This document shows, piece by piece, positions 12,587-28,920 of a DNA stretch of 64,000 nucleotides. The stretch comes from Larus michahellis (taxonomy: Eukaryota; Chordata; Aves; Charadriiformes; Laridae), in NCBI RefSeq assembly GCF_964199755.1, contig NC_133929.1:1736001-1800000 (forward strand), in the 5' to 3' direction. Below the pieces are notes generated by a model. It made no database searches. It had not been told where the DNA came from and saw only the letters and a program-made list of their open reading frames with translations. The translations under genes and the position numbers were made by a program. Every line of letters begins with the position of its first letter. Position 1 is the stretch's first letter.

Positions 12587-14013
12587 ATCTATAGTGAGCA
12601 ATGATGCTCTCCAATACAAGAATGAGTTATACTGACAAAATTCTTCTGCTTGCTTTTAAGAGAGTCAAACAAGCAAAAAGGCAACAAAGCATTAATGTAT
12701 ATCACAGCAGTAAAAGAAAATAAGAAAAAAAAAAGCTTTAACAAAAAAAAAGTGTAGGCAGAGAAGGGTTACTCAACTATTCTATATTGTCAGATCTTAT
12801 CATTTTATAAGGAAAAAAATGAGCTAAGCAAAACATCATAAAAAAAAACCAAAACAAAAACCTCAACCAAATCATAACTAACTTTTGTCCTTTAAAGTAT
12901 TCTTGCAAAGAACTGTAAGGGTACATGGAAGGAGAGAGCATCTGTTCCTTTAAGGGTATTTGGTCAAAAGCCTTTTAAGTGCAAAAGGAGATAATAAGAA
13001 GGGGGGGGGGAAGAAAGATGTTTAACAATGGAGTTTTATAACCTGTCTGCTCTGTCTGCTACCCTTACAGATTCTTCTCAGTTTTAAAAGGAATTCCACT
13101 TCTAGTTTAATAAGAAGTTCCTGCTCAAACCATGAGGTAGATACAAGTCAGAAAACCACTGTGCTACCTACTTTGTATGCAGAATAAACTGACAGCATTC
13201 TTGTTACAAAGAGATTATAATCTAAAACCTAACAACCACAAAAATATACATACTCCTAATTTCAGACTCAGACTACATATGAGATTAATCTGAAGAGCAT
13301 TCAGTTCTCCAGAGCAGCAGCACTGCTGTTTATTTGTATCCTCCAGAAAGATTCCGTGCGAAAATGAACAAAACCAAACAGCACAAAAGACAGCGGACAT
13401 TCAACAGTAATAAATAAAAACATATAGTAAAGCATCAAATATTCCTATTGACCTAAACATCTTTCAAAACTGGTTTTGAGAAGAAATGCTAGCTAAGTAG
13501 GTTACATACAGCAAAGTCAGAGACACTATGGCTCAATTTCTATAATGAAGTTGTTTCATTTTTAAGTTGATTTCCTAACTCTAGTTTCAAAGGTGTGCTT
13601 GCAACTATAACTCGAAAAATCTCTCTTCTTTAGCCAACTGCAGTACTATTGGGAGTGCTCATAACTTTACTAAAGAGCAGTACAAACTCTACAGTATAAT
13701 GCTTATTACTGTAACATTATAGAAGAAGCCACAAACCAGCAAACAATAATGACAACTTAAGACTATTTTCAGGAAGGTGTAGAAATTATAATCAGAAATA
13801 TTTGTTCTTATGAAAGATTTAAAACATACAGGTAGGACACAGAAGATGGAAAAAAACCCCACCTCTTCTACCATTAACCAGGCTTTATTTTTAAAGTGGA
13901 AATATTTTTATATAATACTGTATATGGGAAGCAAAGTGTTTAAGAACACGGTCCTATAAAAATATATGGAATTATTTCAGAAAGTACTCTCTCAACTCTT
14001 TACGAGATGAAAG
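12587..14013. other. AT-rich spacer, nothing recognised
   Basis: About 1.4 kb of AT-rich DNA with simple A-runs and one G-run near 13002-13010. No gene, RNA or mobile element that I can support. Confidence 0.6.
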
Positions 14014-14109
14014 TCATAGAACCATAGAATCATAAAAACTGTTGGGTTGGAAAGGACCTTTAAAGGTCATCTAGTCCAACCCCCATGCAGTCAGCAGGGA
14101 CATCTTCAA

Positions 14110-15390
14110 CTAGATCAGGTTTCTCAGAGCCTCATCAAGCCTGGCCTTGAATGTCTCCAGGGATGGGGCCTCCAACACCTCTCTGGGCAACCCGTTCCAG
14201 TGCCTCACCACCCTCACAGTAAAGAACTTATGTCTAATGTCTAATCTAAACCTGCCCTGCTCTAGTTTAAAGTCATTATCCCTCGTCATATCCCTACGTG
14301 CCCTTGCAAACAGCCCCTCCCCAGCTTTATTATAGGCCCCCTTCAAGTACTGGAAGGCCGCTATAAGTTCTCCCTGGAGCCTTCTCTTCTCCAGGCTGAA
14401 CAACCCCAACTCTCTCAGCCTGTCTTCATAGGAGAGGGGCTCCAGCCCTCTGATCATCTTCGTGGCCCTCCTCTGGACCCGCTCCAACAGGTCCATGTCC
14501 TTCTTGTGCTGAGGGCTCCAGAGCTGGATGCAGTACTCCAGGTGGGTTCTCATGAGAGCAGAGTGGAGGGGCAGAATCACCTCTCTGGATCTGCTGGCCA
14601 TGGTTCTTTTGATGCAGCCCAGGATGCGATTGGCCTTCTGGGCTGCGAGTGCACATTGTTGGCTCATGTCCAGCTTTTCATCCACGAGTACCCCCAAGTC
14701 CTTTTCCATGGGGCTACTCTATCATGTCATCCCCCAGCCTGTACTGATAACGAGGGTTGTCCTGACCCAAGTGTAGGACCTTGCACTTGGCCTTGTTGAA
14801 CTTCATAAGGTTTGCTTGGGCCCACCTCTCTAGCTCATCCAGGTCCCTCTGGATGACATCCCATCCCTCTGGCCTGTCATCTGCACCACTCAGCTTGGTG
14901 TCATCTGCAAACTTGCTGAGGATGCACTTGATCCCACTATGTCATTAATGAAGATGTTGAACAGCACTGGTCCCAGCACGGATCCCTGAGGGACACCACT
15001 TGTCACCCCTCTCCATCTGGGCATCAAGCCATTGACCACCACCCTCTGGATGCGACCATCCAGCCAGTTCCTTATCCACCGAACAGTCCACCCATCAAAT
15101 CCGTATCTCTCCAACTTAGAGAGAAGGATGTTGGGGGGGGACCGTGTCAAAGGCCTTTAGCTCTCCCCTTGTCCACTGATGCAGTCACTCCATTGTAGAA
15201 AGCCACCAGGTTGGTCAGGCAGGACTTGCCCCTGGTGAAGCCATGCTGGCTGTCTTGAATCACCTCCCTGTCCTCCATGTGCCTTAGCATAGCTTCTAGG
15301 AGGATCTGTTCCATGATCTTCCCAGGCACAGAGGTGAGGCTGACAGGGCGGTCATTCCCAGGGTCCTCCTTTCTACCCCTTTTAAAAATG
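14110..15390 (-). pseudogene. CR1-6 ORF2 reverse transcriptase remnants
   Basis: C-terminal RT from [20 protein letters not shown] to the tail [20 protein letters not shown] (14110-14709). Upstream pieces carry [12 protein letters not shown] (about 15000) and [19 protein letters not shown] (about 15300-15370). Stops and frameshifts separate the pieces, and the catalytic FADD region near 14900 is degraded. It is a decayed reverse transcriptase. Confidence 0.88.
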
Positions 15391-15399
15391 GGTGCGATG

Positions 15400-15759
15400 T
15401 GTGAGGAGAAATAACTGGACTCCAGACGATCCAATGTGAATCAACAGAAGCCGTTTATTAAGCACAGATCATCATCTTTTATACCCTGTGTTGTAGCCAT
15501 ACACGCGACTCGCTTATTTCTGATTAGCTCGTTACACTGTCCACGCACTGTCCATGCAGTTCATTCACAGATCAGATTGGTTACAAGAATTCACATAGTA
15601 AATTGCTTAGTCATTAGCACAACATGTTTTCTACCTTCTCAGTTCCCATTTTTCCCATGTACTAATTCCATCTTCTACCACCTGTTTTGCCCTTAATCTA
15701 ATCTCTCATAGTAGGGAGGCTGGCTCACGTGATCATTTTCTCTCAGACACATTCCTACA
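15400..15759 (-). mobile_element. Solo retroviral LTR (LTR-B)
   Basis: 360 bp. Read on the minus strand it begins TGTAGGAATGTGTC and ends CTCACA (TG...CA). It contains a TATA box (TATAAAAG, 15476-15483) and an AATAAA poly(A) signal (15454-15459), the layout of a U3-R-U5 LTR. It sits inside CR1-6 and is flanked by GATG on both sides (15396-15399, 15760-15763). A 4-bp duplication is typical of class I (gamma-like) elements. No internal region remains. Confidence 0.82.
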
Positions 15760-16088
15760 GATGTGTCCCTTTTTCCAGTCACCAGGGTCTTCACCTGACT
15801 GCCATGACTTTTCAAATATCATGGAGAGTGGCTTGGCAATTCCCTCAGGACTCTGGGGTGCATCTCATCAGGTCCCATGGACTTGTGTATATTCAGGTTC
15901 CTCAGGTGGTCACGAACCTTGTCTGCACTTATAGTGGGAGGGACTTTGTCCCCCAGATCCCCGTCTTGCGGTCCTTCAACCCGGGAGGTGTGAGGAGAGA
16001 GGCTGGCAGTGAAGACCATGGCAAAAAAAGTTGTTGAAAACCTCAGCCTTCTCCTCGTCTGTTGTTACCAGTTTGCCATTCTCAGTCA

Positions 16089-17568
16089 TCAGGGAGGGCA
16101 TGCTTTCTTTGATCTTCCTTTTCTGGCTGACATATCCCTCAGGACTGTGAACTCCACCAGTGCGTGGCTACTGCAACCCAGGCTGCTTCCAATCTTGATA
16201 TCCCCAATGAGCTGGGCTGTTGGCTGCGATGCCTTCTTAGAGGAGCACCTCTTGGGGTGTTTCTCGGGTGTTTCCCTGTTGACTCGGACTACCTCAGGAG
16301 CCCCTGGCTCATCTCTGTAAGACTTTGGCTGTGATGTAGCATCCCTAGCATGCCTCGGGGCAACAGGTTGAAGGCCCTTCCTAGCGCCCCATCCCTCTAA
16401 CCCTGACGTGTTATCCCACAGCTTGTCACAGACAAGCCTAATAGTATCATCCCCCTCCCCCTTCACATCTAGTTTAAAGCCCTGTCAATCAGCCCCGCAA
16501 TCTCTCTTCCCGCTTTGAGAAAGGTGTTTCCCATTTGATGCCAATAAGCCCGGTGCTGTGTAGGCCATCCCATTATCAAAAAAACCCCAAACTGTGGCGG
16601 TGACACCAGCCACAGAGACATGTATTAATGGACTGGATGCGTCTGTTCCTTCCAATGTCACTACCTGCAACTGGAAGGAGTGAGGAGAAAATAACCTGTG
16701 CCCCAGACTCCCTTACCAACCTTCCCAAGGCCCTGAAGTCCCCCTTGATTGCTCTTGGTCTACGAGTCACAGCTTCATCTCCACCTACATGGAAAATCAT
16801 TACCGGGTAATAGTCCGAGGACTGTATCAAACTAGAGAGTTTCCTAGTTATGTCTTTAATCCGGGCTCCAGGAAGACAGCAGACTTCCCTGTGAACAGGG
16901 TCTACCTGGCATATTGGACCCTCTGTTCCCCTCAGGAGGGAGTCACCAACAACTATAACCCTCCTTTTCTTCCTTGGGGATGTGGTGATGATACGGGCGG
17001 TAAGCCTTTCTGACTGTGGAGATGTCTCTGGTGTAGATTTGCCATCATCCAAACTCTCATTTGACTGGCCTTCCTCATCCAGTACCTCATATCTGTTGTT
17101 CGGAGGTACCAAGGGGGGCGGGGGGGGGGGCAAGGAGAGAGTTTGCCCGCTGCCCCAACTGTAAACTTGCCTCCATTCACTCCCTTCATTTAGGCTTCTG
17201 CCTTCTGCCTGACAGGAGCAGGGTACAGGGGCCCCTTGATCCTGACTACTTTCTGACAGGTGCTCCTGTTTCTGTATCAAGGAGGGCAGAGCCTGGCTCC
17301 ACCAGTCTATTTCTTCTTCAGCCTCCCTAATGCTCCTTAACCTTTCAACTTGCTCTCTCAGCTCTGCCACCAGGCTGAGCAGGTCATTTACCTGTTCACA
17401 ACATACACAGTTGTTCCCATAGCTGCCTCCCGTTGCCAGTGAAAGGCTCCGGCACTCTCTGCAGCCCGTGACCTGGACAGCTGCATGTTCCTGTGGGAGC
17501 TCTGTCTGGGTTCCCACATCCATTCTGGCTAAGGTTGAGTGCACAACTTTCTTCTGGGTGGATGGCAT
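16089..17568 (-). pseudogene. CR1-6 ORF1 (zinc-finger/coiled-coil/esterase-like) with the start of ORF2
   Basis: ORF1 runs from 17568 (MPSTQKKVVHSTL) through paired cysteines (GCRECRSL, CVCCEQVNDLL), a coiled-coil segment (VAELREQVERLRSI) and an SGNH-esterase-like start (VIVVGDSLLRG) to about 16480. The known CR1 ORF1 role is RNA binding and particle formation. A frameshift near 16580, in an A-run, breaks the C-terminus. ORF2 would begin at 16466 with GTG, 2 nt after the ORF1 stop, and is then mostly deleted. The LTR insertion at 17588 separates ORF1 from its 5' UTR. Confidence 0.82.
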
Positions 17569-18092
17569 AGCTAAGCTACTTGGCTCCTGTCATGGTTTTG
17601 GCCAGATTGGCCAATCAGAATCACAGATGGCCCTCCCCCCCCACTCTCCAAAGAGAGGAGAGGAAGAGATAAGGAGATTTACGAGTTTAGAAAAAGAACT
17701 AAACTACTTTAATGAAAATAATAAATAAATAAGGAAATAGTAAATAATAATAGAATAATAAAAATAATTTAAAAAAGTATACGATATATACAAAACCGTA
17801 TCCAGCTCCCAGGATGATGATCGCGTCACCAGCAGATGCAGGGAAAGTCCCAGACTGGAGTCAGCAATGGACGGGAGCAGGATTCCAGATCTGGAGTCAG
17901 GAATGCTCGTATCGGGATCAAAGGCAGATGAACAGACAGGGTCCTCCTCAAATATTGGCCGCTGAAGAAAGAGAGACTTGTCATAGAATCATAGAATTGT
18001 TGAGGTTGGAAGGGACCTTTAAGATCATCGAGTCCAACCTTTAGCCTACCCTGACAAGAGCCACTTCTAAACCATGTCCCTCAGTGCCCCAT

Positions 18093-21014
18093 CTACCTTT
18101 TTTTTTTTTTAAACACCTCCAGGGATGGTGAATCCACCACCTCCCTGGGCAGCCTATTCCCATGTTTAATAACCCTTTCAGTGAAAAAATGTTTCCTAAT
18201 ATCTAATCTAAACCTCCCCTGACATAACTTGAACCCGTTTCCTCTTGTCCTATCACTTGTCACCAGGGAGAAGAGGTCAGCCCCCATCTCTCTGCAACCT
18301 CCTTTCAGGTAGTTGTAGAGGGTGATAAGGTCTCCCCTCAGCCTCCTCTTCTCCAGGCTAAACAACCCCAGCTCCCTCAGTCGTTCTTCATAAGATTTGT
18401 CCTCCAGACCCCTCGCCAGCTTTGTAGCCCTTCTCTGGACACGCTCCAACACCTCAATGTCCCTCTTGTAGCGAGGGGCCCAAAACTGAACACAGTACTC
18501 GAGGTGGGGCCTCACCAGTGCCGAGTACAGGGGGATGATCACTTCCCTAGTCTGGCTCACCACACTATTCCTAATACAGACTAGGATGCTGTTGGCCTTC
18601 TTGGCCACCTGGGCACACTGCTGGCTCATATTCAGCCGGCTGTCCACCAACACCCCCAGGTCCTTTTCTGCCGGGCAGCTTTTGAGCCACTCTGCCCCAA
18701 TCCTGTAGCGCTGCATGGGGTTGTTGTGACCCAAGTGCAGGACCCGGCACTTGGCCTTGTTGAACCTCATACCATTGGTCTCAGCCCATCGGTCCAGCTC
18801 GTCCAGATCCCTCTGCAGAGCCAACCTACCCTCAAGCAGATCAACGCGCCCGCCTAATTTAGTGTCATCTGCGAACTTACTGAGGGTGCATTCGATTCCT
18901 TCATCTAGATCATCGATAAAGATATTAAAGAGAACCGGCCCCAGCACCGAGCCCTGGGGGACACCACTTGTGACCGGACACCAACTGGATTTAACTCCAT
19001 TCACCACCACTCTCTGGGCACGGCCATCCAGCCAGTTCTTTTACCCAGCGAAGAGTACACCTGTCCAGGCCATGAGCAGCCAGTTTCTCCAGGAGAATGC
19101 TGTGGGAAACAGTGTCAAAAGCTTTGCAAAAATCCAAGTAGATAACATCCACAGCTTTTCCCTCATCCACTAAGTGGGTCACCTTATCATAGAAGGATAT
19201 TAGGTTTGATAGGCATGACCTGCCCTTCACAAATCCATGCTGACTGGGCCTGATCACCCTGTTCTCCTGCATGTGCCGTGTAATGGCACTGAGGAGGATC
19301 TGTTCCATGACCTTCCCAGGCACCGAGGTCAGACTGACTGGCCTGTAGTTCCCCGGATCCTCCTTCCGGCCCTTCTTGTGGATGGGTGTCACATTTGCTA
19401 ACCTCCAGTCAACTGGGACCTCCCCGGTTGTCCAGGACTGCTCATAAATGATGCAAAGTGGTCTGGCGAGCACTTCCACCAGCTCTTTCAATACCCTTGG
19501 GTGGATCCCATCCGGCCCCATAGATTTGTGCACCTCCAGGTGCTGAAGCAGGTCCCTCACCATTTCCCTTTGGATTACAGGGGCTTCATTCTGCTCCCCA
19601 TCCCTGTCTTCTAGCTCAGGGGTCTGGGTACTCAGGGAACAACTGGTCCTACTGCTGAAGACTGAGGCAAAGACTGCATTAAGTACCTCAGCCTTTTCCT
19701 CATCCTTGGTCACTATGTTGCCGGCCCTATCTACTAGAGGACAGAGATAATCCTTAGTCCTCTTCTTATTGCTAATATATTTATAAAAACTTTTTTTTTT
19801 TGTCCTTGACAACAGAAGCCAGGTTTAGTTCTAGCTGGGCTTTGGCCCTCCTGATTTTTTTCCCTACATAGCTTCACTACCTCTTTGTAGTCCTCTTGAG
19901 TGGCCTGCCCTTCCTTCCAGAGGCCATAGATCCTCTTTTTTTCCCGAAGTTGCAACACTAGCTCCCTGTTTAGCCAGGCCGGCCTTTTTCCCCGACGGCT
20001 TGTCTTCTGGCACATGGGGACAGCCTGCTCCTGCGCTTTTAAGACTTCCTTCTTGAAAATCATCCAGGCTTCCTGGGCTCCTTTGCCCTGGAGGACTGCC
20101 TCCCAGGGGACACTGTCAAGCAGGCTCCTGAAAAGCCCAAAGTCCGCTCTCCGGAAGTCCATGGTGGCAGTTCTGCTGACCCCTCTCCTTGCTTCTCGCA
20201 GAATTGAAAACTCTATCATTTCATGGTCACTGTTCCCAAGACAGCCTCCAACCTTCACATCCCCCACAAGACCTTCCCTATTTACAAACAACAGATCCAG
20301 CAGGGCACCTTCCCTAGTTGGCTCTCTCACCAGCTGTGTCAGGAAGTTATCCCCAGCACATTCCAGGAACCTTCTAGACTGTTCCCTCCCTGCTGTATTG
20401 TATTCCCAGCAGATGTCCGGCAAATTGAAGTCCCCCACGAGGGCAAGAGCTCGCGATCTTGAGACTTCTCCCAGCTGTTTATAGAATATTTCATCTGCCT
20501 CCTCATCCTGGTTGGGCGGTCTATACCAGACTCCTACTACGATATCTGCCTTGTTAGCCCTGCCCCTGAGTCTTACCCATAAACACTCAACCCCATTATC
20601 ACCATCATTTAGTTCAAAGCATTCATAACACTCCTTAACATACAGGGCCACACCCCCGCCTCTCCTTGCTTGCCTATCCTTCCTGAAGAGCCTATAGGCA
20701 TCCATGGCAGCACTATAGCTATGTGAGTCATCCCACCACGTTTCTGTGATGGCAACTACATCATAATTATCCTGCTGCACAATGGCTTCCAGCTCCTCCT
20801 GTTTGTTACCCATGCTACGTGCATTAGTGTATAAGCACTTCATCTGGGCTATTGGTCCTTTCTCCTTTTTACTGGCGGGAGCCGAAATTCTGCCACCCCC
20901 AGACTTATTCCTAAGGAGCCTGGTTATGCCCCCTATCTTTTCCAAGTCTAGTGCCAGCATGCCACCTTCAGGCTTTTTGCTAGCAAACATGGATCTATCC
21001 CCATCCCCCTTCAA
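18093..21014 (-). pseudogene. CR1-7 ORF2 (endonuclease + reverse transcriptase), frameshifted
   Basis: The endonuclease (about 21014-19900) shows CLYTNARSMGNK, AITETWWDDS, GDFNLPDICW and LGNSDHEMIEF. The RT shows [26 protein letters not shown] and [10 protein letters not shown], with C-terminus [17 protein letters not shown]. Frame breaks lie in homopolymer runs near 19855-19861 and 19791-19801, and a 1-bp insertion sits near 19032-19038 (shared with the copy at 10408-11885). The C-terminus is altered by a poly-T run at 18099-18110. The first in-frame codon after the ORF1 stop is TTG (21014), not ATG. Confidence 0.9.
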
Positions 21015-21016
21015 AT

Positions 21017-22123
21017 CTAGTTTAAAGCCCTGTCAATGAGCCCCGCCAACTCTTGCCCTAAAACCCTTTTCCCCCTCTGAGACAGGCTTTTGCCGTCTGT
21101 TGCCAGCAGGCCTGGCGTCCTGAAAAGCAGCCCATAATCAAAGAACCCCAAGTCCTGCCGATGACACCAGTCTCTGAGCCAGGCATTGAACAGCTGGCAT
21201 TTCCTATTAATCTCCTCATCTATCCTTGCAACTGTTGGGATAGAAGCAAACACTACTTGTGCTCCTGATCCCCTAACCAGCCGTCCCAGGGCCCTGAAGT
21301 CTTTCTTCATTGCCCTCAGGCTTCTTCCTGAAATTTCATCATTGCCTAACTGAAAAATCAATAAAGGGTAGTAGTCAGCAGGCTTAACTAGGGTAGGGAG
21401 TTTCCTCTGGACATCCTTAACTTTGGCCCCAGGGAGACAGCAGACCTCCCTACAGATTGGGTCTGGTCTACATATGGGACCTTCCACTCCCTTCAGAATT
21501 GAGTCCCCTACTACAAGGGCCCATCTTTCTTTCATAACTGAGGATGTTGTTATACAAGGCTTAATCCGTCTCGGCCTCAGTGACAACTCCAAGTTCAGTA
21601 AGCTGTTGTCCTCCTCATCCTCCGGTTCCCTTTGCAGAACATCATATCCGTTCTGCAAGGGCACCTCAGATGGTGTGGGGGTCACCTGGGTGGCACACCT
21701 GCCACGCCGGACAGGGACTTGTTGCCACTGGCCCCTGTCCTCTGAATCTCCACATTCAGCTGTGCTGCTAGAGGGTGGGGAGTGCTCTGTATGTGGAGCT
21801 CTGTCTGCCTGAGGTGCTTCTTTCAGGGAAGGCAGGGTGTGACTCCAGTTGTCTATCTCCTGTTCACACTCCCTTATACTTCTCAGACGACTTACCTCCT
21901 CACGGAGCTCCATCACTAGGTGAAGGAGTTCCTCTACCTGGGCACACCTCCCACAGGTCTGCTCACCACTGCCATTCAACACAGGCACAAGAGCAGGGCA
22001 CACCCTGCAACCTGACACCTGGGTGGCAGCATGTTCCCACGCAACCTCTGTCTGAGTGGCCACATCAGAGCTGCTTGGTGCAGAGCTCAGGGATAGCATG
22101 GCCTTCTGCCGAGTTCTTAGCAT
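21017..22123 (-). CDS. CR1-7 ORF1 protein, intact (368 aa)
   Basis: Uninterrupted ORF1, taken from the ATG at 22123 (MLRTRQKAML); the frame stays open further upstream into the 5' UTR monomer, so a longer start cannot be excluded. In order it has C-x2-C pairs (GCRVCPAL about residue 38, CGRCAQVEELL about 57), a coiled-coil stretch (VMELREEVSRLRSI), a Pro/Ser-rich linker, and an SGNH-esterase-like domain opening with VVGDSILKG. It ends RALN at 21017. CR1 ORF1 proteins bind element RNA and act in trans with ORF2. The stop is followed after 2 nt by the ORF2 frame. No frame damage is seen, unlike ORF2. Confidence 0.88.
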   Translation of the reverse strand: MLRTRQKAMLSLSSAPSSSDVATQTEVAWEHAATQVSGCRVCPALVPVLNGSGEQTCGRCAQVEELLHLVMELREEVSRLRSIRECEQEIDNWSHTLPSLKEAPQADRAPHTEHSPPSSSTAECGDSEDRGQWQQVPVRRGRCATQVTPTPSEVPLQNGYDVLQREPEDEEDNSLLNLELSLRPRRIKPCITTSSVMKERWALVVGDSILKGVEGPICRPDPICREVCCLPGAKVKDVQRKLPTLVKPADYYPLLIFQLGNDEISGRSLRAMKKDFRALGRLVRGSGAQVVFASIPTVARIDEEINRKCQLFNAWLRDWCHRQDLGFFDYGLLFRTPGLLATDGKSLSQRGKRVLGQELAGLIDRALN

Positions 22124-22232
22124 GACGTCCTGGTCAGGTCTAGAGGCTTCCAGTAACTTACTGTTCAAGGAGCTTCGTCCTATACGACCGCTCTCGCCGG
22201 GGTGACACCGCCCAGCTGCCTGTGTGCTGGCT

Positions 22233-22254
22233 GCGCAGCGGCCGGCCGCTGCGC
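22233..22254. repeat. Perfect 22-bp GC palindrome in CR1-7 5' UTR
   Basis: Half-site GCGCAGCGGCC followed directly by its reverse complement, with no spacer and no mismatch. It lies between the monomer array and ORF1 and would form a strong hairpin in the transcript or act as a symmetric protein site. Confidence 0.9.
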
Positions 22255-22260
22255 TCCGGG

Positions 22261-24424
22261 ACAGTCCGTTTAGAACTGCCACGTGAGTCGTTGTCTCCGC
22301 CCCCGCCGCGTCAGCAGCCCACCCCCGAGCTGCCGGCTCCGCCACGAGGCAGCCGCCTTTCCCAGCCACGAAAGCCCTCAAAAGAGCCTTTTTGCCGGCC
22401 TTACCCGCCGCGATCCCCTTCCCCAGTGAGGCCTTACCTGCACTGGAGCTGGTCTCCTCGGCGACTGACCGTTGGCGTGTTTACAGTCCGTTTAGAACTG
22501 CCACGTGAGTCGTTGTCTCCGCCCCCGCCGCGTCAGCAGCCCACCCCCGAGCTGCCGGCTCCGCCACGAGGCAGCCGCCTTTCCCAGCCACGAAAGCCCT
22601 CAAAAGAGCCTTTTTGCCGGCCTTACCCGCCGCGATCCCCTTCCCCAGTGAGGCCTTACCTGCACTGGAGCTGGTCTCCTCGGCGACTGACCGTTGGCGT
22701 GTTTACAGTCCGTTTAGAACTGCCACGTGAGTCGTTGTCTCCGCCCCCGCCGCGTCAGCAGCCCACCCCCGAGCTGCCGGCTCCGCCACGAGGCAGCCGC
22801 CTTTCCCAGCCACGAAAGCCCTCAAAAGAGCCTTTTTGCCGGCCTTACCCGCCGCGATCCCCTTCCCCAGTGAGGCCTTACCTGCACTGGAGCTGGTCTC
22901 CTCGGCGACTGACCGTTGGCGTGTTTACAGTCCGTTTAGAACTGCCACGTGAGTCGTTGTCTCCGCCCCCGCCGCGTCAGCAGCCCACCCCCGAGCTGCC
23001 GGCTCCGCCACGAGGCAGCCGCCTTTCCCAGCCACGAAAGCCCTCAAAAGAGCCTTTTTGCCGGCCTTACCCGCCGCGATCCCCTTCCCCAGTGAGGCCT
23101 TACCTGCACTGGAGCTGGTCTCCTCGGCGACTGACCGTTGGCGTGTTTACAGTCCGTTTAGAACTGCCGCGTGAGTCGTTGTCTCCGCCCCCGCCGCGTC
23201 AGCAGCCCACCCCCGAGCTGCCGGTTCCGCCACGAGGCAGCCGCCTTTCCCAGCCACGAAAGCCCTCAAAAGAGCCTTTTTGCCGGCCTTACCCGCCGCG
23301 ATCCCCTTCCCCAGTGAGGCCTTACCTGCACTGGAGCTGGTCTCCTCGGCGACTGACCGTTGGCGTGTTTACAGTCCGTTTAGAACTGCCGCGTGAGTCG
23401 TTGTCTCCGCCCCCGCCGCGTCAGCAGCCCACCCCCGAGCTGCCGGCTCCGCCACGAGGCAGCCGCCTTTCCCAGCCACGAAAGCCCTCAAAAGAGCCTT
23501 TTTGCCGGCCTTACCCGCCGCGATCCCCTTCCCCAGTGAGGCCTTACCTGCACTGGAGCTGGTCTCCTCGGCGACTGACCGTTGGCGTGTTTACAGTCCG
23601 TTTAGAACTGCCGCGTGAGTCGTTGTCTCCGCCCCCGCCGCGTCAGCAGCCCACCCCCGAGCTGCCGGCTCCGCCACGAGGCAGCCGCCTTTCCCAGCCA
23701 CGAAAGCCCTCAAAAGAGCCTTTTTGCCGGCCTTACCCGCCGCGATCCCCTTCCCCAGTGAGGCCTTACCTGCACTGGAGCTGGTCTCCTCGGCGACTGA
23801 CCGTTGGCGTGTTTACAGTCCGTTTAGAACTGCCGCGTGAGTCGTTGTCTCCGCCCCCGCCGCGTCAGCAGCCCGCCCCCGAGCTGCCGGTTCCGCCACG
23901 AGGCAGCCGCCTTTCCCAGCCACGAAAGCCCTCAAAAGAGCCTTTTTGCCGGCCTTACCCGCCGCGATCCCCTTCCCCAGTGAGGCCTTACCTGCACTGG
24001 AGCTGGTCTCCTCGGCGACTGACCGTTGGCGTGTTTACAGTCCGTTTAGAACTGCCGCGTGAGTCGTTGTCTCCGCCCCCGCCGCGTCAGCAGCCCACCC
24101 CCGAGCTGCCGGCTCCGCCACGAGGCAGCCGCCTTTCCCAGCCACGAAAGCCCTCAAAAGAGCCTTTTTGCCGGCCTTACCCGCCGCGATCCCCTTCCCC
24201 AGTGAGGCCTTACCTGCACTGGAGCTGGTCTCCTCGGCGACTGACCGTTGGCGTGTTTACAGTCCGTTTAGAACTGCCGCGTGAGTCGTTGTCTCCGCCC
24301 CCGCCGCGTCAGCAGCCCGCCCCCGAGCTGCCGGTTCCGCCACGAGGCAGCCGCCTTTCCCAGCCACGAAAGCCCTCAAAAGAGCCTTTTTGCCGGCCTT
24401 ACCCGCCGCGATCCCCTTCCCCAG
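22261..24424 (-). repeat. Tandem array of 222-bp CpG-rich monomers (CR1 5' UTR)
   Basis: Unit starts recur exactly every 222 bp (22261, 22483, 22705, 22927, 23149, 23371, 23593, 23815, 24037, 24259); the last unit is partial, giving 9.75 copies. Each unit has about 20 CpG by my count. I find only three variable sites across the array: CACGTG versus CGCGTG, a T/C site giving ggctccg or ggttccg, and cccaccccc versus cccgccccc. A diverged single copy is the 5' end of the older CR1-6 at about 24920-25113, which identifies the monomer as CR1 5' UTR. A promoter role is inferred by analogy with mouse L1 monomers. On the minus strand each complete unit carries GTGCAGGTAAGG, a strong splice-donor match. 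Confidence 0.93.
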
Positions 24425-24806
24425 GGGACCTTGTCCTTTTGATTTCTCAGCTTTTATACTGAACATGATGCATATGGGATGGAATACCCTGTTGGTCAGT
24501 TTTGGGTCACCTGTCCTGTCTGCTCCTCCCTGCAGGTGGGACCCCTCTAGGCTTCTCTGCTTCTTACCCTCTAATGGGGCAAATAGCGAAGTTAGCTGAC
24601 CTTGGTTGTTATAGCAATAAGTATAAGCAAGAGCCTCTCTGCATACCATTCCTTGGTATAATCAGGTCTTATCACTCCGAGAGTGATCAGTTTCTGAACA
24701 ATATGCTGTTAATTTCAGAATTTAGTCAGTTAGAAGAGGCCCAGCTAAAAAGTAAAATTACAAACCAGAAAACTGGTTCTGTTTTACCTCAAACCAGGAC
24801 AGCTCC

Positions 24807-25113
24807 TTAGAGAGTGGGAAGACAGCCCTTGTCGTGGTGCTCCTAGGTACGCCCAGGGCGATACCCACTCACTGCTTGCTTGCTCCCAAAAGGCTTATTT
24901 TATGTGGGGGGCGGGGAGGGGAATTTACACCTCGTTTAGATCTGCTACCACGGGTGCTGGCTGCGCCCCCCGGAAGTGCCGGGTACCGGCCCGGGCTTGC
25001 CGCTTTTCCTGGCTACGAAAAGCCTCAAAAAACGAGCCCCTAGCCGGCCCTTTTTTGCTGCGATTCCCTTCCCCAATGCCGACTTACCTGCACTGGAGCT
25101 GGTCTCCTCGTCG
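24807..25113 (-). mobile_element. 5' UTR of old CR1-6 with a single diverged monomer
   Basis: Continues CR1-6 beyond LTR-C. From about 24920 it aligns by eye with the 222-bp monomer: cgtttagatctgc against cgtttagaactgc, then cctggctacgaaaagcctcaaaa, gcgattcccttccccaatg, and finally cttacctgcactggagctgg, which is shared almost word for word. There is one copy only, with many substitutions and lost CpGs, consistent with greater age. Confidence 0.82.
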
Positions 25114-25309
25114 AGTCCAAGGGGCTTACTGCCTTCCCTACCACAACTGTGGAATAATTACTAAAACGATCAAAAAAACAGCATTGTTCACACATTAAGG
25201 AAAGGTATAAAATCAAAAAGTTTCTAGGACAGAATACAGCCGCAGCTGGTATGCGAAGAATCCACCACGTCATCTGCGGTTCCCTGTACAATATTGCTTG
25301 CAAAGCAAC

Positions 25310-25646
25310 TGTCCTGGTTCTGGCAGGGATAGGGTTAATTTTCCCTGGTATTCCATGCCATGTGAGCCATGCCCACCCTGAGCTGCCGGGGGAGGGGGCA
25401 GGAAGTCCCCGATTGGAGTGGGCTGGGGTGTCCCGGTCTGGTTGGTGAGCAGCGGTTTGGTAATCGTTTTGTATATTCCTCTATCCGTGTTGTTATTGTT
25501 GTATTCTTGTTCCCTTTGCTGTTCTGTTAAACTGCCTTTGTCTCAACCCAAGAGTCTTGCCTTTTTCTTCCGATTCTTCCTGTATTGGGAAGGCCCGAGC
25601 GAGCTGCATGTGGTTCTTTGTTGCCTTCTGAGGCCAAACCACGACA
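25310..25646 (+). mobile_element. 5' LTR of a broken ERVL provirus (LTR of ERVL-1)
   Basis: 337 bp from TGTCCTGGTTCTGGC to AACCACGACA (TG...CA). It carries the avian ERVL-like opening (agggataggg ttaattttc) and is followed 8 nt later by a primer binding site and gag. No 3' LTR is seen downstream, so the provirus is truncated. Confidence 0.85.
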
Positions 25647-25654
25647 ATCCTTTT

Positions 25655-25672
25655 TGGCGCCCAACGTGGGGC
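25655..25672 (+). promoter_or_regulatory. Retroviral primer binding site, tRNA-Lys type
   Basis: TGGCGCCCAACGTGGGGC matches the 3' end of tRNA-Lys (1,2 type) over 18 nt. It lies 8 nt after the LTR end (atcctttt between), instead of the 0-3 nt usual in many retroviruses. Confidence 0.85.
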
Positions 25673-25771
25673 TCGAAGGCTTGAGATAACAACAGAATCC
25701 AACTAGAGCTTGGAAAAACAAATTTGTTGTATGCATTTATTGTATTAGGCAAATAGTCGCTGGTCACCACG

Positions 25772-27665
25772 TTGCTTGGTTTGTTCTCATGGCTGTGTTA
25801 TGTGAATTCCTATATGGCTTATGTACTCCCTGCGATGATTTTTGTTACTTCTGGGAGAGGGATGAGGATTATCATTTTGTTGTCCTGTGCGATATCGGCT
25901 TATGAGATGATAACATCACTTGTTAGACAGTTACTTTGGGGCGTTTATGTGGTGTTGCTGTCCTGCCCGTACCTTGGGCACCGTCTCTCAGAATTTATTA
26001 ACAATTACACCCAGTCTATGGGGGAAACAGGGGGGGACACTTTCCCCAGCAATTTTGCCTCCCTTTTCTCCTTCGGGTCAGGTATGACAGCTTTTGACAA
26101 TTTTGAATATCCTTGGGATACTCAAACCAGCCTGGTCCTATTGTTATGTCTCCTGAATGTGTTCCAGGTCCTGTTTAGGGTTAAACAGCTATTTAAGACT
26201 ACCACTCAGAGATCTGCCCCAAGGCTGGCTAGTCAGGGGTGGCATGGCATGTGGGAGAACATGGGCAGGTACCTAGAGAACTTCTCACCTCCAATGGTCT
26301 GGGACTTCACCCCTGAACAATTACAGGACCCTGATAAAGCGGTAGAATATTTGAAGGGAAAATGCTGTGGCTATTCTAGAGAGGCACAACTCACCACACT
26401 GTGCTGGGCCCTGGCCAGTATCTACCAGGCACTGTTCAATATTATGCAGCACCCTCAGGGGAAAGAGATGGAGACCAGACCAGCAGCCACTGCGGCTACT
26501 GCAACCCCTGCGGCAGACACTGCGGCTGCTGCAACCCCGGTGGAAGGTACTGCCGCTGAACCAGGAAACCAACCCATGCCGGTATCAGTTGCCGCTATAC
26601 AGAAGAAGTAGTACACGAAGAAATCAGTTCGCTCAGTAAGAGATGATGATGAACCAGGGTCATCACGAGAGCAGGAGGAAGAGGCAGAACCAGAGATATT
26701 TACTCGATCCCTATCCTTGAATGAGCTGCGGGATATGCGAAAAGATTTTAGCCGACTTTCAGGCGAGCACATTGTCACCTGGCTGCTCCGGTGCTGGGAT
26801 AACGGGGCCAGTAGCCTGGAATTAGAGGGTAGGGAGGCCAGGCAGCTGGGATCCCTGTCCAGGGAAAGGGGCATTGACAAGGCAATTGGGAAGAAGACCC
26901 AAGCCCTCAGCCTCTGGAAACAACTCCTGTCAGGTGTAGAGGGAGAGGTACCCCTTCAGTGAGGATGTATGTCAACCAAGCAAGTGGACTACCATGGAAA
27001 GAGGTATCCAGTACCTGAGAGAATTAGCTATGCGGGAGATGATTTATTATGACCTGGACAATGCAGACTTACCCACAGACCCTGATGAGGTGCAGTGCAC
27101 AAGGCCCATGTGGCGGAAGTTTGTACGGAGCGCACCACAGTCATATGCCAACTCACTGGCAGTAATGGAATGGAAAGGCAAAGAGGGACCAACGGTGGAT
27201 GAGGTGGCTGGCCAGCTCCGGCGATATGAAGAAAGTCTCTCTTCCCCCCTTGTCTCAGCTGTGGAGAAACTGCCCCAGAAGATCCAGCAACTTGAAGAGA
27301 ATATATCCTACTCCCCACCTGCACAGGCCAGCGTCTCAGCTATTAGGAGCAGGCATTTCCCCACTCAAGAGAGAGAGTACAGAGGGTACACACCACGAGG
27401 CACCCTGTGGTTCTACCTGCGGGACCACGGGGAGGACATGAGGAAGTGGGATGGACAACCTACTTGGATCCTGCGGACACGGGTACAGGAGTTGCAAGGA
27501 AGGACAACCACAAAAGGGGATCCCTCCAGGAAAAGTGCCGCCCCAGTTTCCAGCGGGCAGTTCCCCAGACAGAGCAGAAGGCCTGATCTTGCTTCTGATC
27601 CTCTTGAAGGAACTTCCAAGTCATTTCTGCAAGAAGTGAGTAATGGATACTATGACCAGTATTAG
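25772..27665 (+). pseudogene. ERVL gag, interrupted
   Basis: A gag-like frame runs from 25772 with an in-frame TAG at 26609-26611 and continues to about 26945, where a 1-bp shift moves the reading to the frame ending at 27665. Recognisable capsid-type wording includes HIVTWLLRCWDNGASSLELE (about 26770) and RPMWRKFVRSAPQSYANSLA (about 27100). The N-terminal part (25772-26200) is rich in hydrophobic stretches and I cannot assign it a domain; an Ala/Thr-rich repeat (near 26480-26560) precedes the first stop. The structural polyprotein cannot be made intact. Confidence 0.8.
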
Positions 27666-27769
27666 AGGGGCCCTGTCTCTGCCAGGTGGAGGAAAGGGAC
27701 ATCCGGGTTTATTGGACGGTGTGGATTTGATGGCCTGGCACATCAGACCCACAGGAGTATAAGGCCCTA

Positions 27770-28507
27770 GTGGCTCTAGTGGACACGGGTGCACAGTGTA
27801 CCCTAATACCATCAAGCTATAGAGGGGCAGAACCCATTTGCATTTCTGAGGTGACAGGGGGGTCCCAAGAGTTGACTGTACTGGAGGCAGAAGTGAGCCT
27901 AACTGGGAATAAATGCGAGAAGCATCCCATTGTGACTGGCCCAGAGGCCCCGTGCATCCTTGGCATAGATTACCTCAGGAGAGGGTATTTCAAGGACCCA
28001 AAAGGGTACCGGTGGGCCTTTGGCATAGCTGCCTTGGAGATGGAGGAAGTTAAACAGTTGTCTACCTTGCCTGGTCTCTCGGAGGACCCTTCTGTTGTGG
28101 GGTTGTTGAGGGTCAAAGAACAACAGGTGCCGATCGCTACCACAACGGTGCATCGGCGGCAATATCGCACTAACCGAGACTCTCTGATTCCCATCCATAA
28201 GCTGATTCGTCACCTAGAGGTTCAAGGAGTGATCAGCAAGACTCACTCACCCTTTAACAGTCCCATATGGCCGGTGCGAAAATCTAATGGAGAGTGGAGG
28301 CTAACTGTAGACTATCGTGGCCTGAATGAAGTCACGCCACTGCTGAGCACTGCCGTGCCGGACATGCTAGAACTGCAGTACGAACTGGAGTCCAAGGCAG
28401 CCAAGTGGTATGCCACAATTGATATCGGTAATGCATTCTTCTCAATCCCTTTGGCAGCAGAGCACAGGCCACAGTTTGCTCTCCTGCACAGGAGATCCAG
28501 TTTTTAG
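27770..28507 (+). pseudogene. ERVL pol: protease and N-terminal RT only
   Basis: The aspartic protease signature LVDTGAQCTLIP lies near 27780 and is followed by the RT entry motifs (NSPIWPVRKSNGEWRLTVDY) and the first catalytic-aspartate motif ATIDIGNAFFSIP near 28420. The frame ends at 28507, and the sequence then resumes in another frame with a later RT segment (28490-28610). The region that would hold the second catalytic motif (Y-x-D-D) is missing by internal deletion. There is no polymerase activity. Confidence 0.85.
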
Positions 28508-28920
28508 GAATAAAATGGCAAGATGGATGCTGTCAGATTCCAATGGATGTGATCAACAAAATAGCAGCTATGTCTCCACCAACTAGTAAAAAGGAAACAC
28601 AAGCTTTCTTAGGCTGCAGGGCATGCCCTGCTCTTACACTGGAACAGGATGGCAGCAGCGAGCACACCTTTGGGGGGTATGCCCAGGTAGAGGAACTCCT
28701 CTGCTTAGTGACAGAGCTCCAGGAGGAGGCAAGTAGGTTGAGGAGCATTAAGGAGTGTGAGAGAGAGATTGACCACTGGAATCACATCCTACCTTCCTTG
28801 AGACAGGCCCAACAGGAAGACAAGATACATAATATGGAGGATTCCCTACCCTCTCTCCACCTGACTGAATATAGTAACCTGAAGGATAGGGGGCAATGGC
28901 AACAAGTTCCTGCCTGGTTG

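Follow-up and report, generated by a model that had tools for sequence, protein, structure and literature searches.

Tandem 222-bp monomers upstream of ORF1 in gull CR1 retrotransposons, a candidate promoter array with phased 5' ends

A CR1 retrotransposon on the minus strand of the 64,000-nucleotide stretch of Larus michahellis DNA analysed here (the window) carries 9.75 units of 222 bp, 99% alike, directly upstream of its leader and ORF1, as the sequence-only reading of this DNA had described. Most of the unit-bearing CR1 insertions in the 1.4-Gb genome that were counted as independent have their 5' ends clustered tightly around a single unit position. Judged from the sequences, the array is probably the promoter region of a CR1 family, with transcription starting inside the units; that each unit adds to the output is suggested less firmly.

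Architecture of the window copy and its linkage to CR1

Tandem Repeats Finder assigns the array at 22261-24424 a period of 222, 9.7 copies, 99% matches and 0% indels, and a second repeat search of the window returns the same register for the 222-bp array. Unit position 1 is defined as the A of TCAGTC, a motif that occurs nine times in the array at 222-nt spacing and is present at all nine complete starts. The element runs from its 5' end at 24424 to its 3' end near 17981 in the order array, leader, ORF1, ORF2 in three overlapping frame pieces and ATTCTATG repeats. Its features are as follows.

22261..24424, minus strand: tandem monomer array, 9.75 units of 222 bp (repeat finding and unit alignment)
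22261..22466, minus strand: ORF1-proximal unit, unit positions 1-206
22466, minus strand: putative start site, the A of TCAGTC (from the phase of the 5' ends of other copies)
22688, 22910, 23132, 23354, 23576, 23798, 24020 and 24242, minus strand: equivalents of the putative start (TCAGTC at 222-nt spacing)
22438..22457, minus strand: conserved core GGAGACCAGCTCCAGTGCAG, followed by the splice-donor-like GTAAGG, in each of the nine units that hold this part
22100..22260, minus strand: unique leader ("tether") between the array and ORF1
21017..22099, minus strand: CR1 ORF1, 360 aa from the ATG at 22099, with a second in-frame ATG 24 nt upstream
19734..21014, minus strand: ORF2 piece, endonuclease (Exo_endo_phos, Pfam)
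18991..19812, minus strand: ORF2 piece in another frame, N-terminal part of the reverse transcriptase (Pfam)
18093..19010, minus strand: ORF2 piece in another frame, C-terminal part of the reverse transcriptase (Pfam)
17981..18092, minus strand: 3' region ending in ATTCTATG-type repeats (from the sequence; the tail is matched in other copies)
24925..25119, minus strand: diverged unit remnant, about 75% identical, beginning at unit position 1-3 and apparently outside this CR1 copy

The unit adjoining ORF1 comprises 206 of 222 nt. The outermost unit is missing 40 nt at its 5' end and begins at unit position 41, and ORF2 shifts frame twice, so the copy is near full-length rather than full-length as earlier proposed. 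The two frame changes may be mutations or homopolymer sequencing errors. A search with the 20-base unit core at up to 2 mismatches gives 10 matches in the window, all of them exact, and none in 100 shuffles. Nine lie in the array and one, at 25088-25107, lies within the separate, more diverged unit. This remnant at 24925-25119 runs into the inter-unit spacer and, from its sequence, suggests a further lineage of this monomer, probably an older one.

On the plus strand, positions 22222-24462 form a single open frame that would encode 746 aa. It was rejected as coding, as the 221- and 233-bp units of the families B and C described below would break it; that so long a frame runs through the array is most simply accounted for by 222 being divisible by 3. 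When a 222-aa piece of it was compared with proteins, none of 7995 candidates reached E<=0.001. Rfam gives no match at the gathering score over the window.

The ORF2 pieces contain Exo_endo_phos and RVT_1 by Pfam, that is, an APE-type endonuclease and a reverse transcriptase (RT), as expected of CR1. RVT_1 is present in many frames of the window. ORF1, whose counterparts in avian CR1 are marked by an SGNH/GDSL-like C-terminal part, shows a Lipase_GDSL_2 match below the curated cut-off. Judged from its relatives, it is an ORF1 of avian CR1 type and not of the L1 clade. It has 158 relatives at E<=0.001; among the best 120 of these the named organisms are mostly birds, and the best named relative is Charadrius vociferus at 65%. 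Charadrius and Limosa are the closest named relatives among the matches listed. The element ends in short ATTCTATG-type repeats at 17981-17999 with no poly(A), as in CR1, and we take 3' repeats of this type to be a defining mark of CR1. No unit-like sequence was seen by eye in the N-terminal extensions of ORF1 proteins (14 of the 158 relatives). The unit core has no matches in viral and prokaryotic contig collections, a result that has no bearing on birds.

The window lies on contig C38. At all 20 further array loci fetched with their surroundings (L009-L028) the array leads straight into a CR1 ORF1 that is read on the same strand, indicating that the arrays are 5' UTR and not a free satellite, the outcome that the sequence-only reading had named as refuting its proposal. 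The opposite approach, a query with the leader and the start of ORF1, gave 319 candidates, of which the best 40, all A-type starts, were scored. In 26 of these the leader is immediately preceded by unit sequence. Another 13 have no unit there, five of them beginning inside the leader and eight belonging to one group on contigs C550 and C36; the remaining one, C38:15364314, is assigned to neither class. All genome counts are lower bounds because the best 40 candidates were scored per search.

The C550/C36 group (L055-L057) consists of eight truncated A-type CR1 starts, three of which were fetched and have a gene-like flank in common, while the other five were assigned by equal start positions. 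The flank was considered as a different CR1 5' UTR and rejected, as L056 and L057 match a stretch of about 1 kb of L055 at 98% and 97%. Since this stretch is also mostly CpG-poor and gene-like by eye in the three of eight fetched, the group looks like a duplicated locus. At L048, on contig C2, units are present and the short fetched stretch does not run into a leader.

Phased 5' ends and the candidate promoter unit

The 5' ends of 29 of the 42 monomer-bearing insertions that were counted as independent fall at unit positions -1 to 5, a span of 7 of the 222 positions in which uniform 5' ends would place 1.3 (P 5e-34), and 21 of the 42 start exactly at position 1 or 2. Loci with shared flanks were counted once, namely ten satellite loci, the L016/L017 pair and one C38 pair recognised by equal match ranges; the flanks of short fetched stretches were compared by eye, and C38:12721725 was placed by coordinates. 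Because unit searches favour copies with more unit sequence, two checks for bias were run. Of the 26 copies selected through leader and ORF1 without the unit, 21 are in phase (0.8 expected), and when only starts from -111 to 5 are considered, 29 of 37 are in phase (2.2 expected). The 5' end of a complete LINE insertion corresponds to the first nucleotides of its RNA, and the most likely meaning of the phasing is therefore that transcription starts within the unit. TCAGTC resembles the initiator consensus. Start sites inside the monomers of mouse L1 were likewise deduced from clusters of 5' ends and checked against CAGE (PMC6454616). The likeness to mouse L1 promoters that had been put forward from the array alone thereby gains support that was not planned for.

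The 13 off-phase insertions begin at position 41 (the window copy), 62 (L010), 91 (L013) and 80 (L052 and L066), and the other eight (L045-L047, L051 and L062-L065) at -12 to -67, two of them exactly at -40 with different flanks. These eight ends, 12-67 nt upstream, may reflect truncation or a second, looser start. Contig C38 (26.9 Mb, 1.9% of the genome) holds 19 of the 42 insertions, of which 8 are in phase, as against 21 of the 23 elsewhere; this contig is possibly the W chromosome. L011 has TCAGCC in place of TCAGTC at its five inter-unit junctions, although its own 5' end is in phase.

The observed/expected CpG ratio is 0.97 in the window array and 0.85 in the leader, compared with 0.19 in ORF1 and 0.28 from ORF2 to the 3' end, and the GC content of the array is 66%, so that the array resembles a CpG island. 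The family B array of L014 has a CpG ratio of 0.96. The window array contains no ATG on either strand, and the sole ATG in the 2325-nt 5' UTR is the in-frame one ahead of the ORF1 ATG; an ATG-free unit is mildly unusual, as 6% of shuffled units also lack ATG. A donor-like CAG/GTAAGG starts at unit position 27 in each full unit of the window array, and CAGGTAAG is kept in 95 of the 99 matched units of the fetched loci, among which no spliced retrocopy using CAG/GTAAGG was noticed. Such a site may act on transcription through U1.

The number of units tabulated at CR1 5' ends, as the sequence-only reading had proposed to do, ranges from about 1 to 13.9. The longest arrays are those of L009 and L014 (13.9 units each, the latter of family B), followed by the window (9.75), L011 (about 5.5), L028 (4), and L016 and L027 (3). 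Two units are found in L012 and in the satellite group, and about one unit is the commonest class. Therefore, long arrays are the exception, and a copy can insert without carrying units in tandem. The mean divergence within arrays is 0.07% for the 14 units of L009, 0.66% for the window and 0.75% for L011, whereas units differ by 2.4-3.3% between these three arrays, and so the long family A arrays look locally homogenised. Homogenisation is not general: the two units of L012 are 8.3% apart and those of L010 3.1%, and family C arrays are no more uniform internally than they are among one another (2.2% within L027 and 2.5% within L028, against 0.5-2.4% between arrays). The unit variants of the window array read, outermost first, 1, 2, 1, 2, 2, 3 and then four alike; these block patterns suggest that both single units and pairs of units were duplicated. 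Multi-unit A copies are 96-97% identical to the window copy and one-unit copies 87-98% (Mann-Whitney p 0.006), and unit number correlates with identity to the window (Spearman 0.44, p 0.03), a weak comparison of 4 with 21 copies that takes the window as the reference and uses rounded values entered by hand.

These observations lead to a hypothesis in which each 222-bp unit would be a small internal promoter, made of the initiator-like TCAGTC and a CpG-rich body. RNA polymerase II would start at the A or G of TCAGTC in any unit. Starts in outer units would carry the remaining units along as an ATG-free 5' UTR, and ORF1-proximal starts would give copies with about one unit. Units would be lost through inner starts, 5' truncation or recombination, and individual arrays would make up for the loss by expanding in tandem and becoming homogenised, through unequal exchange or a similar process. 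The anatomy, the linkage to ORF1, the phasing, the CpG and ATG pattern, the homogeneity of the long arrays and the mosaic families described below are observed; that transcription starts at the phased ends, that every unit works, and the way in which arrays expand are inferred.

A rival explanation, which we consider rather unlikely, is that only the outermost unit, or only the ORF1-proximal one, is a promoter and that the others are passive duplications expanded by unequal exchange after insertion. It accommodates the predominance of one-unit copies, which mostly begin at position 1, as well as the local homogeneity of long arrays with their array-specific variants and the block patterns of the window units. 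It does not readily account for TCAGTC at each of the nine complete starts of the window array, nor for the single start phase shared by in-phase arrays of about 1, 2, 3, 4, 5.5 and 14 units. Moreover, in-phase copies with one unit lack the 16-bp spacer (unit positions 207-222) and could not, on their own, give rise to arrays that contain it.

Probable exchange of the 5' part between CR1 families

Three families of unit-bearing CR1s were compared. Members of family A (the window copy and L009-L012) share 93-100% identity in each 200-bp stretch of the aligned body, with the exception of L010, whose match stops near window position 19600. The ORFs of family B (L014 and its relative L013) differ from those of A by about 31-36%. 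The window units are 222 bp long, as against 221 and 233 bp in families B and C. Family C, compared through L018, resembles B on its 5' side, at 91-100% in each 100-bp stretch between the unit and approximately window position 20800, and from there to the 3' end it is 93-100% like A. The sites that tell A and B apart were counted within window positions 21164-20373. Down to 20766, 96 of them are B-like, 1 is A-like and 3 are unresolved, whereas from 20730 on they are 68 A-like, 0 B-like and 4 unresolved. Family C is thus a B/A chimera whose switch lies within EN, at the following place.

20730..20766, minus strand: equivalent of the family C switch (B-like on the 5' side, A-like on the 3' side), from the site count; the window copy itself belongs to family A

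Of the 14 family C loci fetched, 8 are in the body alignment and four of these, each representing an insertion counted as independent, are in the site count; the other six loci show the same ORF1/EN pattern by tblastn.

Families A and B differ by 13.7% in the unit and by 35.6% in ORF1. Since related units are joined to ORF1s about 35% apart, and since family C is a B/A chimera in EN, the 5' part appears to move between families. Units and leader, with or without ORF1, would have been transferred by recombination, probably through RT template switching. The likeness of the A and B units could instead reflect strong selective constraint and not recombination, a reading to which we give a low probability. 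The first 60 nt of the unit, including the start and the donor-like site, are indeed well conserved, even in the diverged remnant. However, L013 is close to B in ORF1 (8.0% different) and far from A (33.8%), yet its unit is 8.3% from A and 8.3% from B. Constraint alone should have kept the ratio, and the observed 17 versus 17 differences have a rough P of 5e-5, the sites being partly non-independent. In addition, family C demonstrates that recombination between A and B happens. On the 206 bp compared, exchange of the 5' part accounts for these differences better than constraint alone.

Satellite context and comparison with known promoters

Unit-bearing CR1s lie inside tandem satellites at L012 and L015-L026 (contigs C13, C75, C71, C26, C283, C444 and C131). 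The period of the surrounding satellite is 180 bp as measured at L012 and L018 and 195 bp as measured at L016. Ten satellite loci have one junction in common, as if one CR1 insertion had been amplified with its satellite.

It is very unlikely that CR1 merely picked up a CpG-rich satellite that does not act as a promoter, the common 5' ends marking an RT stop or a structure. The units are tandem, GC-rich and partly homogenised, and some CR1 copies are located inside satellites, all of which would fit such a capture. But the units stand upstream of ORF1 at 20 of 20 fetched loci, the surrounding 180- and 195-bp satellites differ from them in consensus, and RT must have passed the proposed stop in each multi-unit copy, if arrays were inserted whole. 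An assembly artefact, which the sequence-only reading had named as a danger, is the least credible explanation: near-identical units are prone to copy-number error in assembly, but the window array has an internal order of variants, and arrays on C3, on C41 and at two places on C38 differ in length, in period (222 versus 221) and in their own fixed unit variants, which makes an artefact of a single locus unlikely.

A promoter array with starts inside its units has a known counterpart in mouse L1. According to PMC9022269 and PMC6454616, L1Md A, Tf and Gf carry tandem monomers of about 200 bp and a non-monomeric tether before ORF1, and the number of monomers varies, younger subfamilies having more. 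The gull CR1 shares the tandem units of this size directly 5' of a unique leader and ORF1, the variable number of units between copies and the clustering of 5' ends within the unit (29 of 42 insertions, and 21 of 26 when copies are selected through leader and ORF1). The LINE clade is different, as judged from ORF1, and the likeness described here is one of architecture. One-unit copies are the commonest in the gull CR1, unlike in mouse L1. The gull 5' ends mostly fall within a few nucleotides of one motif, whereas those of mouse type A are described as occupying a zone such as nt 70-100.

Among CR1 elements, the subfamilies of 5' UTRs are reportedly treated in a 2001 paper in Gene. Repeats also occur in the 5' UTR of turtle and pufferfish CR1, for which we know of no start-site phasing. 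In PMC2734521 these are 32-bp direct repeats, as against 222 bp here, and are not obvious in chicken CR1-B. The same paper describes promoter sequence in the 5' UTR of CR1-B, which is about 240 bp long, and in the unrelated 5' UTR of CR1-F, which bears out the earlier statement that CR1 subfamilies differ in their 5' UTRs (PMC2734521). The chicken elements and, putatively, the gull elements thus have promoter sequence in the 5' UTR; the word "tandem" occurs in that paper in two reference titles only (PMC2734521). A literature search, which left most subscription journals outside, found no report of tandem monomer promoters in avian CR1, in line with the expectation that they were undescribed. 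Monomeric 5' promoters are described as special to mouse L1 in PMC6454616.

There is about an even chance that an avian CR1 lineage has convergently evolved mouse-L1-like promoters with a sharp start in each unit, that the cassette spreads between distant CR1 families by template switching, producing chimeric families, and that the U1-like site may protect or boost the array transcript. If so, such promoters would have arisen a second time, in a different LINE clade and a different class of vertebrates. This would suggest that tandem promoters are a repeatable answer to 5' truncation, and it would offer an independent system for the open question of monomer gain and loss. Full-length CR1s are rare in six surveyed bird genomes (0-8 per genome, PMC8310711), and therefore a lineage with dozens of copies reaching the putative start would be a good case for the study of CR1 activity. 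Arrays of this kind might be mistaken for satellites when repeats are annotated.

Other elements adjoin the window copy. A second, different CR1-like element lies just downstream on the minus strand (14010-17568); it is cut shortly upstream of ORF1, and no unit is seen there. An endogenous-retrovirus-like remnant on the plus strand (25300-28520), with an RVT_1 match below the cut-off, adjoins the array. A CR1 ORF1-like stretch at 28649-28822 lies in the opposite orientation and is 77% complementary to 21802-21975.
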